DNA of 64,000 nt from Cerrena zonata (Eukaryota > Basidiomycota > Agaricomycetes > Polyporales > Cerrenaceae). The stretch is from contig JASBNA010000002.1 in assembly GCA_038087015.1 (NCBI GenBank), forward strand, positions 868,001 through 932,000, given 5' to 3'. Below, in pieces: positions 57,573-64,000 of the stretch. The first letter of the stretch is position 1. The number at the start of each line of letters is the position of its first letter. A program made the position numbers and the translations under genes. The notes under the pieces were generated by a model, which was not told the DNA's origin, searched no databases, and worked only from the letters and a program-made list of their open reading frames with translations.

Positions 57573-59933
57573 ATGTTTTTGGGGGCACTCTTTCTGGGTT
57601 TACTTTTCCGCGTAGTAGCTCATCCGTCTGCTGATGAACTCCGCCCGCTCTACGACGTACTGGCTAAAGGCCCGCCTTCCGATGCTTTGAGTGTTTCACC
57701 TCAAGCACTCTCCCCTAGGGTTCCGCTGTCAACTGACGACGATACCCCTTCCCCTCTTGTCGACCTGCAGGTCTATGCTCCTCCTGTAGTCCCCAAAGGT
57801 TCGGCGAGTTGTGAAACAGTCCTTCTAACTCACGAATTCGGGGATGGAAGCTTTGGAGTGCCTGGTATAGCGGACTATATACCTCCTACATCAAGTACAT
57901 GCGGACAAGTAGGACGTTGGGCCGCTATCACGTTGAATGTCACCGTCTACTCGTATGTTCTTTAACTTGTGGCAGTAAATTGTCGACCTAAACATAGTTG
58001 TGATTCCTAGCATTGGAACTCAGTATGATCGTCTGAGTGTACGTGCTTTCCCCGAAAATTGGTTATATAGTTACAACAATTTAGCATGAATAGTCGCTAT
58101 ACCTTTCACACGTCGAGAGTATGTATAATATTTAGGGACTACAATATGATTATCGCTGACAGGTTTCTTAGTTCTTCGACATTCCAGTGCGGAACCCACA
58201 AAATCAGGAACAGTTTGGACGTGAGTGCATCTTCTGTACTCTTTAGCTCTCGACTAATGCCAATATTCTGCAGGATGTATGTATCGTTGCTACCTCGACG
58301 TTTCCCCACTTACGCCGAGAAATAAATAGTGTGAAAGATGTTACGCACTATAGTGCACTATTCTCCAAACCAGGTCAGATCCTTATGGACTTTAGTAACA
58401 TCGTGTCGGCAGACCTGTGAGTGACCTATGTTTTCTACAAGATTCATACATAATAGGTTTATAGCGGATTGGACGCAAGCTTCCACGGTAGGTTATTTCA
58501 TTAGTGAGCGAGAAGATCACTTTCTAACGATACATTACAGTCAACGTGACAGCAACATTCTATACTGCCACCCCTTCCTTCCCTGCTGCAACGACATCTG
58601 ACTTAGTATTGCCTCTTTCCAATCTTTCTCCGAACACAGTCAACTTCTTCACCATCGACAACGACGCAGGCGGTACCACAAATATTACCATACCTCCAAC
58701 AACACAGCAAGCATTCGTTGAAATATACGCCTCTGGAAACTCTAACGAGGAGTTCTGGTATCTGAACACACCAGACGAATTCCTGGGCTATTTCCCATCA
58801 TCCACAGGATTAGTTGGGAAAGGGCCTTTCCGCGAAATTCAACTGCTCGTCGATGGAAAGTTGGCTGGAGTCGTCTGGCCTCATGCTGTCATTTATACTG
58901 GAGGAATTACTCCGACGAACTGGAGGCCATTGACAGCATACGGGACATATGACCAACCTACTTATTACATTGACGTTACTCCATTCATCCCACTTCTGAA
59001 TGATGGTAAACAACACGCATTTACATTACGTGTTCAAGGACAGGGTGTCTCGCATTCTATCAACTCGAATTGGTTCGTCTCTGGCTCGGTGCAGCTCAAA
59101 TTGGGCAACAGTCGGGTTACAGGCAGAATGACCACGTATGACATTCAGTCTAGTCCCGTTATTCACACTTCTGGAAGTGCTACTACAGATAATAGTACTG
59201 TCAGTGCTTCTGTAGTGGCCCAGCGTCGTGTGAACATCGCAAGTGAAATTCGAGGGCGATTCTGGCACCCAGACAGGTGCGCTTCGAACAGAATCTCAAG
59301 TACAGCAATCTTCAGAAGTATGAAGGAGAAGGATGGGTACAGGTATGTGTCTAACACGTTTCATGCCTAAACCATGTTCTGATTTGTGTATTAAGTGGGG
59401 GAACCAGCTAACTGAAGGTACTACCCAGTCCGTACATGGTGGTCGAAACGTCTTCCGTGATGCGTTCTCATATCCCTTGGACGTCTTTTCCAACTACACC
59501 TTGTATACAATGCAATTCGGTACACCCATTTCCATCTCACTAGGTCTAGTTCTAATTCGACAAAAATTCTGTAGGTGCATATGGCTCCGCCATCAACCAA
59601 ACGTTCAGCCGAACACTCTTATCCCCCTTCTCGGCCCACACAAACACTATCCTCTCAATCCAACACGCTCGCGGTGACGTAGGAATGGACGATGCTCCCG
59701 GTCTTCGGCATGCCATCAATGGGACTGGTGCAACTGACCAACAATTTGCCTTTAGTTCAACCTCTGGGGAGACTTACTTCCGAGATATTGCAGCGAAGAA
59801 CAACGGCTGGGTAAGAGATTCGGTATGGGGTACGCTGAAGGACCTTGAACCACCTGTACCGAAGAATCAAATCTTTGAGAGTGGAGGGCATGGTTTGAGG
59901 CGGGGATTTAGGGTACCAAGGCGGGAGTTGTAG
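57573..59933 (+). CDS. Secreted peptide-N-glycosidase A (PNGase A family)
   Basis: Cleaves N-linked glycans from glycopeptides. The signal sequence MFLGALFLGLLFRVVAH is followed by VDLQVYAPPVVPKGSASCET, VLLTHEFGDGSFGVPGIADY, and RWAAITLNVTVYS-IGTQYDRLS. Two small exons give SLYLSHVEI and LRHSSAEPTKSGTVWT, the conserved family motif. Then DVTHYSALFSKPGQILMDFS, GLDASFHVNVTATFYTATPS, FREIQLLVDGKLAGVVWPHA, IYTGGITPTNWRPLTAYGTY and DQPTYYIDVTPFIPLLNDGK. The last part reads HGGRNVFRDAFSYPLDVFSN and NGTGATDQQFAFSSTSGETY. Two homopolymers are one base too long, GGG at 59254-59256 and GG at 59276-59277, breaking SEIRGDSGTQT-VRFEQNLKY. The exon joint before DVTHYS is also unresolved. Confidence 0.85.
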
Positions 59934-60251
59934 CTACCAGTGTAAGTACTTCGAAGTACCTATGTAATAAAGAAACATCATTTGTAGGGCACATCGGGGG
60001 AAAATACCAATCGCCATCCAGAACGCAGTCACAGTACTTGGTTGGAATTGAGCACATCTTTGCAAAGCCACTGAGAGAAGGTCATTGTACCAAGGGGTGG
60101 GTATGATTCAGATTGACAAGCCTATTGTGAAAAATTAAACAGTTGACTTGTGCTCTGGGAATTATAGAACAAAACTCTAAATTAGGACAGGTAATTGGAT
60201 TGGTATATATTGCAACCAATCATGCAATGGTCAATGACTGTCTTGTTCTAT
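59934..60251. other. Convergent intergenic region; CpG-free from 60026
   Basis: 3' flanks of PNGase A and the WD40 gene. CpG sites are present up to 60025 and none from there on. Confidence 0.6.
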
Positions 60252-62481
60252 CTATTTTACCCCAAAGGTATCACCACCACAAGTTCCCCTAGAATTGAAT
60301 GTCAGTAAGAGTGCAGGTAAGAGGAATAAAATATAGTACTCACACTACAATAGGCATTTCCTGCTTGTGGATATCACCAAGGGAGAAATAACCAATATCA
60401 TCATCTAACTGGAGTAGAATTTGCCCATTTCTGATGTCATCATTTGCTCTGCTGACATCCCATAAGCATATACAGCCTAAAAATGGTGGTGTAAGCATAT
60501 TTCAACATTCAGATAGTATTAACTTGCCATCTGCTCCACCTGAGACAAGATCTACTACACCAGAAGGTCTAGATACCCACTGAGCTTTGACAACACCATA
60601 GGGAGTCTCAGCTGCTATAGAGGGTCCATGTGAGTAGACATGTAGAGGCCCCTTTGAGAGATACTGTGAGTCATAGACATGAATCACATTGTGTTTCCAT
60701 GCTAAGGCAATATATCTGTCATCTGGACTTATGGTGATAGCATTTACCTCAGTCTGGTCTTGGACATCTAACTGGATTGATTGACATGCTCTAGAATTTC
60801 TCTGAGACATGTCATGAATCCATAGTGTATGCCTAAGAAGACTGCCTTTGGTGTAGATGTATGAGTAATTTCCTGATATATATGATCAGATCTAGTTAAT
60901 CTTCTGAGTTTGGTTCAAAGGTCATCAACTTACCAGTGTTATTGATTGTGACTGCATGACCACCATCAGCAATGTCAAGGGTGCATACTGACTTTCCAAT
61001 TTCAGCATTGACTAATTTGTGAACACCAGTAGGGTCCTTTAGCTCATCATCATCAGAGGTACATGTTGTTGCAAGAAGATGACCAGCTGAAGAGCCAGTT
61101 CCCCAAGAGAAGTCTGAGATCATCTGTCTTCTGCTTACTGGGGTGATAGAAACATCCCTCTTTTTCTTGTACTGAGAAAGGTAGAGAGTCCTTTTCTTGG
61201 AATCAGTAAGGATACTTATATAATATAAAGTCAACATACCCATTATCTCCACCAATTGCTAGAAGTGACTGATTTGGCATATATCCTAACTTTCTTGGAG
61301 AGCATTCTAGTTGTACTAGAAATCTTTATCAGTATAAATCAAGCACTAAGAAAAAGTATACATACATTTATGCATCTGGGGCAATTTCCCCCATTCTATT
61401 GATTTACAGGACCAAAACCTGACACATAAATCATAACCAGCAGAGGCTAGAATATATGGCCTAGGGAATTTACTATGAGTATACAATAGAGAGATAATAA
61501 CAGTCACATACTTGAGAGGGTTGAATTGAATATCAGCAACTGTCATATATCTTTTGACACCTGAACAAAGCTTATAGCTGTAGCTTAATAGCTGTACAAT
61601 TGAAACATACCATTTGTAGTCCCTTGTATTTCTATTGAGTGCCCTTCAGTAGTCATAACTATAGTTTTTCAGTATAGACTTTGAAAATATCATGAAATAA
61701 ACACATACCTTCATCATGGTTGAGGGCAACCAAGGAGCCCTCAAGGTTATAAGGGTTTATCTCAGATTCCCCTAGATTCAAAAGATATACATCATAAAAT
61801 AAATGTAATATGACAAATAGACATACCAATATCATCTCCTCCAGTAGTTACACTAGCAATGGCACAATATTGCCCAGATTGAACAATGCTATTGACAGCT
61901 ACATCACAGCATAAGATTTGAGTTCAGAATATAATTATAACCTTACCTCCAGGGGATTTATTTATATGCTGCTTAGGCCTATGAGCCAAAAAAGCAAAAG
62001 ATGATCTTTCCCAAGGAAATGTGTTCTGAGCTGTCTAAAAATGAACACTTTAGCATAAGTAGCTGAAATTATGAAGTTTAGTTTGTAATTTTACCACTAA
62101 TCCTATAGTTGAGCTTTCTGTACCATTGTGCCAGGACTGTTTGCTATGTCTTCCTGAAAATGAATCTGTTGTATCTTTGGATATACCAGGATGAAGTTCA
62201 CTTCCCCTCCCAGGTCTTAGTGACAGATGTCTCACTTGAGACTCAATCTTAACACACCTTGGATGTCTTGTTGGAGGCCCAATCCTAACATGTGAAGGGC
62301 CTGCCTGAGCAGAAGGCTATTTACAACTAATGAGGCAGCTTCATGTTGTATAGAAGACAGTTAATACCTGTGTCAGGAATCTCATCATTCTCATCATCAG
62401 AAATCATGATAAACTCCTGCTTTTGGGGCTAGAACCAAGGTTAGGCTGGATTTTTTTTTGAAAAAAGCAGCACTCACTAGG
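60026..62481. other. CpG-free island (2,456 bp)
   Basis: Reading every line and line boundary, no CG dinucleotide occurs between the CG at 60024-60025 and the CG at 62482-62483. TpG and CpA look frequent in exons, introns and 3' flank alike. Arg is encoded only by AGA/AGG and there are no TCG, CCG, ACG or GCG codons within it. Such depletion in DNA of moderate GC is the mark of long-term 5-methylcytosine deamination, or of strong selection against CpG. Confidence 0.95.
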
Positions 62482-62645
62482 CGACACACTTGAAACCTAC
62501 TCTTCCCGATGTATTTAATGTCATCTGAGTTATAGCCGGAGTCTTCGGAGCCCTGCAGTACAATTAATGTCATTAACATGCTGACAACTTGACCTGAACC
62601 AGTTCAAATATCTCTGACCTTCCGGGGAATCTTAGGTTGCGGCAT
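60252..62645 (-). CDS. WD40-repeat protein
   Basis: Start MPQPKIPRK, then GSEDSGYNSDDIKYIGKSRF and a disordered region containing PQKQEFIMISDDENDEIPDT, GPSHVRIGPPTRHPRCVKIE and a basic Ser-rich stretch. A beta-propeller follows with blades such as AVNSIVQSGQYCAIASVTTG, YMTVADIQFNPLKY, YILASAGYDLCVRFWSCKSI, QMISDFSWGTGSSAGHLLAT, TEVNAITISPDDRYIALAWK, HNVIHVYD and VVDLVSGGADGCICLWDVSR. About 15 small exons, with introns from about 45 to 90 nt and clean GT-AG sites. Reading frames and splice sites survive over 2.4 kb with no CpG, so the gene seems functional. Its target is unknown. Only the first exon and most of the second keep CpG. Confidence 0.75.
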
Positions 62646-62896
62646 ACTCTCTGAGTTATTGTATTTTTTATGGGATTCAGAGGATATGAGAATGGGTTGT
62701 ACTGGCGTTGTTTAAACAGTTTAATCGTACAGTCATCGTGCGTTCAACGTACAGTTGCATCATGGTCGCGCGATCGATCGAGGAAGCAATAGGCGCTGCC
62801 ACAGTATGATATTTCGACCAAGTTTCTAGTCCACGGTAATCTGACTCGCTGTGGGTACCCTCACCTTGCGTTGCTCAGGAGTGAAGTGTTTAAATC
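62646..62896. promoter_or_regulatory. CpG-rich divergent promoter, WD40 / D2HGDH
   Basis: 251 bp between the start codons. CpG is frequent, including a palindromic GCGCGATCGATCGAGG block at 62767-62782. This CpG-rich promoter abuts the CpG desert of the WD40 gene body. Confidence 0.6.
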
Positions 62897-64000
62897 ATGT
62901 TTGTTCCACGACGTCTCGTACGGGCTGCGACACTCTCACTTCGTAGGGCACACACCTCTGCCCCAGCTTTGAACTCCGTAAACGCAGAAGACATTGCTCA
63001 CTTTTCCAAATTTCTCACACCAACGTCTATCATCTCGACATTGTCGCCTCAACCATCTCCATCCTCAGAGCTGGCTCCATTTAACAATGACTGGATGAAC
63101 AAGTATCACGGACAGTCCACTACAGTCATACGACCTCGAAGCACACAAGAAGTTAGTGAAGTGGTCAAGCGGTGTAATGAACGAGGAATTGGTATTGTCC
63201 CACAAGGTGGAAACACTGGTCTTGTTGGTGGCGGAGTGCCGATAAAGGATGAACTTGTTCTGAGTCTGGGTAATATGAACAAGGTGCGCTCCTTCGACCC
63301 TGTCTCTGGTAAGTATCCTTGCCCCCATGCTAAGAACATAATTCTGAAGTATTTCGACCAGGTATCCTTGTTGCGGATGCCGGATGTGTCCTAGAGTCAC
63401 TCTCAGAATATCTTGCCCCTCACAACCATATAATGCCTCTTGACCTTGGAGCTAAGGGCAGGTATGTTCAACGTTATCATTATTCATACAGTATTTTAAT
63501 TGTGTTGAGTAGTTGTCAAATCGGCGGGAATGTCTCCACGAACGCAGGCGGTCTTCGTCTGCTCCGATACGGTTCCCTCCACGGCTCGGTACTCGGTCTA
63601 GAGGTTGTTTTGCCCGACGGAACCGTCCTCGACCAACTATCAACACTCCGCAAGGACAACACTGGCTACGACCTTAAACAGTTATTCATCGGCGCAGAAG
63701 GAACACTTGGTATTGTCACTGGGGTTTCGATTCTTACAGCTCCCGCTCCTCAGTCCGTAAACAATGTGGTACTGGCTTTACCCAAATTCGACAACGTCCT
63801 CCCCCTCTTCACGAAGGCCAAACGCCAACTTTCAGAAATCCTGTCTGCTTTCGAGTTCTTCGACAGAACAGCGTACGATCTTGCGGTAAAACACGGTCAA
63901 GGACGTGCGTTGAACGAAGATGAAACAGAAGGCGCGGAGTGTTTCGTCCTCCTCGAAACTAGCGGAGGTAACAAAGACCACGACGATGAGGTAAATATCT
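62897..64000 (+). CDS. DLD2: D-2-hydroxyglutarate / D-lactate dehydrogenase (FAD-dependent), 5' part
   Basis: Mitochondrial-type flavoenzyme oxidising D-2-hydroxyglutarate or D-lactate. Start [19 protein letters not shown] is an Arg-rich mitochondrial presequence. Then [60 protein letters not shown] (FAD-binding PCMH loop), [18 protein letters not shown] and [57 protein letters not shown]. The gene runs off the window at 64000, where a donor-like GTAAAT follows DDE. Three exons seen so far, all in frame. The choice between D2HGDH and D-LDH cannot be made from this part alone. Confidence 0.9.

Follow-up and report, generated by a model that had tools for sequence, protein, structure and literature searches.

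Why should the body of one gene in a fungal genome lack the CpG dinucleotide altogether, when CpG density is normal near both edges of the affected stretch? The question arises from the window, by which we mean the whole stretch of DNA analysed here: 64 kb of the polypore Cerrena zonata (Polyporales), C2:868001-932000 in an assembly of 55.5 Mb and 171 contigs. A CG count over the window reproduced the observation of the initial annotation, with flanking CGs at 60024-60025 and 62482-62483 and none inside. No other distance between CGs within the window exceeds 180 bp, and the longest gap in 100 first-order Markov sequences built from the window's dinucleotides was 247 bp; from the base composition of the desert and the CpG observed/expected ratio (o/e) of the window (0.92), about 83 CpGs would be expected in it. 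CpG resumes at once on both sides, with six CGs in 59901-60024 at the left edge and 21 in 62482-62900 (o/e 1.01) at the right. The features that concern us here are as follows.

60026..62481: CpG-free stretch of 2,456 bp; GC 0.38, TpG o/e 1.32, CpA o/e 1.35
60252..62645, minus strand: WD40 gene, predicted Raf1/Dos1-like propeller; 15 exons, 543 codons, intact (hand gene model)
62645-62619, 62552-62478, 62428-62368, 62300-62095, 62034-61947, 61898-61827, 61771-61709, 61658-61611, minus strand: WD40 exons 1-8
61560-61512, 61460-61366, 61315-61240, 61190-60934, 60872-60528, 60476-60344, 60288-60252, minus strand: WD40 exons 9-15
60026..60251, minus strand: WD40 3' flank, without CpG (CG count and gene model)
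62482..62645, minus strand: spared 5' end, WD40 exons 1-2 and intron 1; CG at 62482, 62507, 62537, 62546, 62623 and 62640
62646..62895, no strand: interval, with CpG, that separates the divergent WD40 and FAD_binding_4 genes
Start near 62897, plus strand: divergent neighbour, FAD_binding_4 gene
58528..59933, plus strand: convergent neighbour gene with normal CpG; frame 58528-59370 is PNGaseA (PF12222, E 4.3e-61)

In 106,347 bp of other C. zonata sequence the longest CG gap was 210 bp; this background is a small part of the genome (the rest of the window, 20 kb of adjoining contig sequence, the flanks of two DNA methyltransferase (DNMT) deserts, and loci L001, L005, L043 and L062) and was assembled after other deserts were known, with the deserts left out by choice. 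The expectation that ordinary genes would be free of such deserts held throughout these 106 kb, but the same deserts were found on two DNMT genes, a Pre-SET gene and a cluster of WD40 genes, to which we return below.

A WD40 gene with a CpG-bearing 5' end

The gene under the desert runs on the minus strand from an ATG at 62645 to a stop that ends at 60252. Its description as a WD40 gene of some 15 exons with a usable frame and arginine encoded only by AGR was right in outline: in our hand model the AGR codons are the only arginine codons of exons 3-15 (22 codons), and the single CGG and single CGC both fall in exons 1-2. Thirteen introns are GT-AG as had been stated, and one, with its donor at 60527, is GC-AG. 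The desert had also been said to cover the gene body, which is true of exons 3-15 (13 of the 15 exons, 1,530 bp exonic), of 13 of the 14 introns and of the 3' flank, but not of the 5' end, since CpGs persist in exons 1-2 and in the promoter region. The last CG before the desert, at 62482, lies inside exon 2, four bases from the exon end. The annotated protein QCA50_001723 (P0001, 451 aa) starts further in and is identical to the hand model over 81% of the model; the longer model is backed by a DDIKYIG motif in the spared exons that resembles, by eye, the DDIQYIG of an Artomyces relative.

The interval 62646..62895 is probably the shared promoter of the WD40 and FAD_binding_4 genes. On the other side, the stop of the convergent PNGaseA gene lies 92 bp from the end of the desert, where 59556-59933, which has no Pfam match, was taken as the last exon of that gene.

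Resemblance of the protein to Raf1/Dos1

Of the 32 proteins that an alignment search yielded, one was the query, six were close relatives and were used (P0002, P0003 and P0008-P0011, 27-36% identical to the Cerrena protein), and 25 were much weaker matches, bacterial WD40 proteins among them, that were left out. Structure prediction from the single sequence was useless (pLDDT 32.5), and a seven-row alignment brought the pLDDT to 71.7. The best structural match of the predicted fold was the propeller of fission-yeast Dos1/Raf1, a subunit of the CLRC H3K9-methyltransferase. A profile comparison also matched Raf1 over its length in a single piece rather than through one WD repeat (residues 95-421 of the profile against 51-374 of the chain, 62 bits), although two repetitive WD40 proteins outscored it overall through many short matches.

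Most likely, the gene encodes a subunit of the Raf1/Dos1/DIM-9 type that would support H3K9 methylation and thereby DNA methylation, DIM-9 of Neurospora being what we take to be the counterpart of Raf1. The protein is like S. pombe Raf1/Dos1 in its propeller fold and full-length profile match, and unlike it in that identity is only about 20%; since WD40 propellers look alike, the assignment, which draws on the fold and this 20%-identity alignment, and the membership in a CLRC- or DCDC-type complex are putative. Pfam by itself did not place the protein, its best match being THOC3 at 49.7 bits, far under the cut-off of 305. The names Raf1 and DIM-9 were absent among the relatives printed by length-limited searches that needed shared words.

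The relatives bear on one alternative raised by the initial annotation, namely acquisition of the gene from a genome poor in CpG. Low GC content (0.36-0.43 in the three 1-kb bins overlapping the desert) would agree with such an origin, but the right-hand desert edge falls within one continuous gene, and the truncated copies described below carry both sides of that edge. Organism names are attached to five of the six close relatives, in every case names of Agaricomycetes; the seven-row family tree puts Cerrena next to Dichomitus, the second polypore included, with weak support (68/67). With neither a named close relative outside the lineage nor a junction at the composition edge, transfer appears extremely improbable.

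Traces of deamination

Methylation of gene bodies depletes CpG. The TpG and CpA ratios of the desert compare with 1.06 and 1.10 in the window left of it, and correspond to 187 TG (150 expected) and 202 CA (164 expected). The summed excess (75) is slightly less than the 83 missing CGs, which counts against gene-body methylation as the cause; in two DNMT deserts it is relatively smaller still (79 for 106 missing on C16 and 75 for 130 on C3).

The protein carries a corresponding trace. Among columns with conserved arginine the Cerrena protein keeps 1 of 12; for the six relatives, scored in turn against the other five with Cerrena left out, the figures are 6/9, 6/12, 8/11, 7/12, 7/13 and 6/8. In the five columns with arginine in five or all six of the relatives, Cerrena has none (0/5) and shows W, S, W, Q and C (codons TGG, TCT, TGG, CAG and TGC); W, Q and C at strongly conserved arginines are the products that deamination of CGN codons would be expected to leave. 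The Cerrena branch is the longest of the family tree (2.09 vs 0.57-1.15). If this reading is true, methylation-driven mutation can reshape a protein far, replacing conserved arginines and giving it the longest branch in its tree.

From the loss of CpG, the deamination signature, the spared 5' end and the recurrence of such deserts on other genes, we infer that gene-body CpG methylation is the favoured explanation; the depletion of CpG and the excess of TpG and CpA in the body, together with the intact start, are the pattern by which gene-body methylation is recognized in sequence. The body of a native Cerrena zonata gene would have been CpG-methylated over a very long time, with the promoter and the first ~160 bp of the gene staying unmethylated. 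Through deamination the body CpGs would have become TpG or CpA, and selection would have preserved the frame and the splice sites and released the conserved arginines. The methyl groups may have been deposited through H3K9 methylation.

Truncated copies of the gene

Five truncated copies of the WD40 gene, about 87% identical to it, lie elsewhere in the genome, and four of the five are mutually 99.86-99.95% identical over 8.5-9.7 kb. They comprise two segments of the gene.

60133..61461: first copied segment, complete or almost complete in the five copies, with a gap in four of them; CpG mostly lost before copying
62276..62692 (to 62567 in copy C80a, then an insert): second copied segment, joined directly to the first in the copies; CpG partly lost after copying

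In 60133-61461, gene and copy C80a have 175 TG or CA sites in common, many of which never were CpG, with 3 discordant sites (TG in one, CA in the other) and 6 sites with CG in the copy. About 44 CpGs are expected in this segment, and by our estimate independent loss in gene and copy would give ~22 discordant sites; with only 3, the desert in this part mostly predates the copy. In 62276-62567 the counts (26 shared, 4 discordant, 7 with CG in one or both) indicate that CpGs were lost later. Copy C114 has TG or CA at five of the six CpG sites of the gene's spared 5' end, and the converse, CG in the copy where the gene has TG or CA, occurs at 2 sites; judging from these sites, the gene seems to protect its own 5' end more than the copy does.

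In the two of the five copies that were examined there are 3 stops and 22-24 deleted exon columns, and the frame of the parent is intact. Gene-copy dN/dS is 0.59-0.60, with a divergence of 0.148-0.152 in noncoding sequence and 0.107-0.110 in exons, which is compatible with, but does not prove, decay of the copies and purifying selection acting on their parent in the window. The proposal of the initial annotation, long-lasting 5mC and deamination under purifying selection, is thus the best reading of the TpG/CpA excess, the change of arginine to W, Q and C, and the intact frame against the stops of two copies, with methylation itself as its conjectural part.

The same copies raise the alternative, also considered by the initial annotation, of a RIP- or MIP-like process, in which the five truncated copies and the inverted-repeat fragments would have triggered CpG mutation of the parent. 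Copies and palindromic fragments do exist and are themselves CpG-poor, the WD40 genes on C14 are multi-copy as well, and CpG-biased hypermutation in genes has been reported in Rhizoctonia solani AG8 (PMC4014442). That system is like the present one in that CpG turns to TpG in coding genes of an Agaricomycete, and unlike it in being a genome-wide SNP pattern between nuclei rather than complete deserts on chosen genes (PMC4014442). The counts given above speak against mutation following duplication, as most of the CpG loss in 60133-61461 is common to the gene and its present-day copies and therefore older. The CpA-biased C-to-T change seen in Ascomycota is likewise not what we found, CpA being in excess and CpG gone, and a study of 1,239 genomes describes RIP-like signatures as confined to ascomycetes (PMC12543289). 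A search for the C-5 methyltransferase domain found five places in the genome; all 11 of its candidates were scored, and the methyltransferase domains of the C3 and C16 desert genes had no duplicate among them. A Pre-SET search gave 2 hits, both scored. We regard such a process as quite improbable, and long methylation of the gene body as the better account.

Contig C116 (66,402 bp) ends in inverted copies, 99.95% identical over 9.4 kb, each with a truncated WD40 copy (L021, L022). Two palindromes, C114:2000-11900 (L024) and C110:66500-76400 (L025), are CpG-poor and hold small pieces of the WD40 5' region; the arms, seen in L024, measure 4.3 kb, and o/e is 0.32 at its centre. These palindromes are possible sources of hairpin RNA.

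CpG-free bodies on methylation-pathway genes

Two of the methyltransferase places carry deserts longer than that of the window: a gene on C3 (L061, C3:2185500-2193500) is CpG-free over 3,792 bp, and one on C16 (L060, C16:210000-218000) over 2,749 bp. Both are on the minus strand, and both have CpG-bearing 5' ends. The C16 gene combines an RFD domain (PF12047, E 3.3e-5) with a C-5 methyltransferase domain (PF00145, E 2.4e-12), the domain content expected of a DNMT1 of Basidiomycota, and has a C-terminal methyltransferase exon; the C3 gene has PF00145 methyltransferase matches only. The remaining two of the four DNMT loci, C11 and C17/C19, have normal CpG (0.89-0.92). The last of these is found in duplicate with equal score at C17:8138 (L043) and C19:109441 (L044), perhaps representing two haplotypes.

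Of the two Pre-SET genes, the one on C4 has normal CpG over the 141 bp examined. The other, on C11 (C11:126700-127950; L077-L079), has 19 CGs in 126728-127063 and then none to 127950, where the sequence ends, and is therefore CpG-free over at least 886 bp; it is probably of the H3K9-methyltransferase type.

For comparison we took ten RNAi and recombination genes: four Argonaute, three RdRP, Rad51, one Rad51-family gene and one weak Spo11 match. None of the ten, eight of which are pieces of 101-141 bp, carries a desert. RNAi genes as a class were set aside on an o/e of 0.74-1.37 in the Argonaute and RdRP pieces (4/6 Argonaute and 3/6 RdRP regions sampled), and meiotic genes on the normal CpG of Rad51 (C2), the Rad51-family piece (C2) and the weak Spo11 match (C4); further Rad51-family matches on C67, C3 and C27 lie outside the sample. 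Leaving out the window gene, and counting C17 and C19 once and the C11 DNMT locus, whose subfamily is unsettled, as a pathway gene, deserts occur on 3/6 pathway genes vs 0/10 comparators, which gives only P = 0.036 (hypergeometric). The normal C4 Pre-SET gene and the two normal DNMT loci likewise weigh against our main reading.

Our main reading, to which we give a probability of roughly 0.6, is that of a native, putatively Raf1-type WD40 gene whose body was long CpG-methylated with its 5' end spared, with negative feedback within the pathway as the preferred reason: the heterochromatin and DNA-methylation machinery would hold its own genes under gene-body methylation and thereby limit itself. 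Such self-repression is the most interesting reason for methylation of the body, if an unproven one. Its full form, a self-limiting polypore circuit whose own genes (Raf1/DIM-9-like, two DNMTs and the H3K9-methyltransferase-type gene) are methylated in their bodies until these are CpG-free, with promoters excepted and arginine loss forced on its WD40 subunit, we put forward only tentatively.

The neighbours of the desert genes raise another possible cause. The downstream genes of the window, C16 and C3 desert genes (PNGaseA, Exo84 and HSF; for the latter two the final exon is assumed from open frames without Pfam matches) are convergent in 3/3 cases, the three for which a downstream neighbour is known. 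Methylation of the body, common to this explanation and ours, could then be a by-product of convergent transcription, through antisense RNA, that has no regulatory meaning and hits pathway genes by chance. In fission yeast, clr4+ and rik1+ also belong to convergent pairs, and are described as turning heterochromatic under unchecked spreading, which is drawn there as negative feedback (PMC4395908). Convergent pairs would, however, be expected to be common, and yet no further desert occurs in the 106 kb of background. We consider a mere by-product unlikely.

As a precedent for feedback, the clr4+/rik1+ case (PMC4395908) is like ours in that the machinery's own genes are targeted, that they lie in convergent pairs and that the 3' region matters; it differs in concerning H3K9me, in mutant cells and reversibly, whereas in Cerrena a presumed DNA methylation would be ancient, with its effect permanent in the sequence. 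In animals and plants, CpG methylation of gene bodies is similar in affecting the body and sparing the region near the TSS (PMC7862722). In Cerrena, unlike there, the loss of CpG is total and found on few genes. Arabidopsis ROS1 and IBM1 resemble the present case in that a pathway gene carries methylation that tunes that gene (PMC4380477, PMC11265718). They differ in that methylation is sensed through elements in a promoter or an intron, rather than being seen as CpG-free gene bodies.

In fungi, gene-body methylation is described as largely lost or lacking from most species, U. reesii and M. robertsii being among the exceptions (PMC13297926, PMC7862722). In Puccinia striiformis it is reported to be tied to allele expression (PMC12129025), and in two Pleurotus species mCG is given as almost depleted in genes (PMC5974365), which speaks against a broad basidiomycete gene-body mark. 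A literature search, with subscription papers mostly outside its reach, returned no account of fungal methylation genes with CpG-free bodies. If true, our reading would reveal ancient gene-body methylation in a phylum whose reported methylation lies mainly in transposon-rich regions, and would locate it on the genes responsible for the mark itself. The loop would leave a sequence fossil, readable in any genome as CpG-free gene bodies; such deserts would be a sequence-only readout of fungal genes methylated over evolutionary time, and how fungi restrain heterochromatin would become directly testable.

Depletion beyond heterochromatin genes

The deserts extend beyond heterochromatin genes. Five of eight sampled WD40 loci are CpG-poor (o/e 0.13-0.23, measured over ~3.1 kb each), all five in one cluster at C14:593788-688211 (L003, L004, L006, L007 and L008). 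The open frames of this cluster have 445-625 codons with 0-3 CGs per frame, and the 625-codon frame of L006 is without any CG.

Depletion of this cluster too would agree with an explanation in which the desert genes were methylated for being off during most of the life cycle, for example through pre-meiotic expression only, and which shares the methylated body with our main reading. A correlation of genic methylation with low expression, reported in Pleurotus (PMC5974365), points the same way. Against it, the spared 5' ends suggest active promoters, the dead copy having TG or CA at 5/6 of those CpGs, and Rad51, the Rad51-family gene and the weak Spo11 match are all normal in CpG. Silencing of this kind is unlikely, and we continue to prefer feedback methylation of pathway gene bodies.

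Transposons offered little as a model for the deserts: 6/8 reverse-transcriptase loci (L052-L059, sampled from 116 matches) have normal CpG (0.79-1.12), and two are depleted (0.29 and 0.24). Two further loci, L064 (C27) and L066 (C75), with intronless Spo11-like and Dmc1-like frames, have CpG present, look like contaminating ascomycete yeast and were dropped before the count of ten comparators; some contigs of the assembly may be contaminants. Searches of the genome for HORMA and SRA domains also located matching places.
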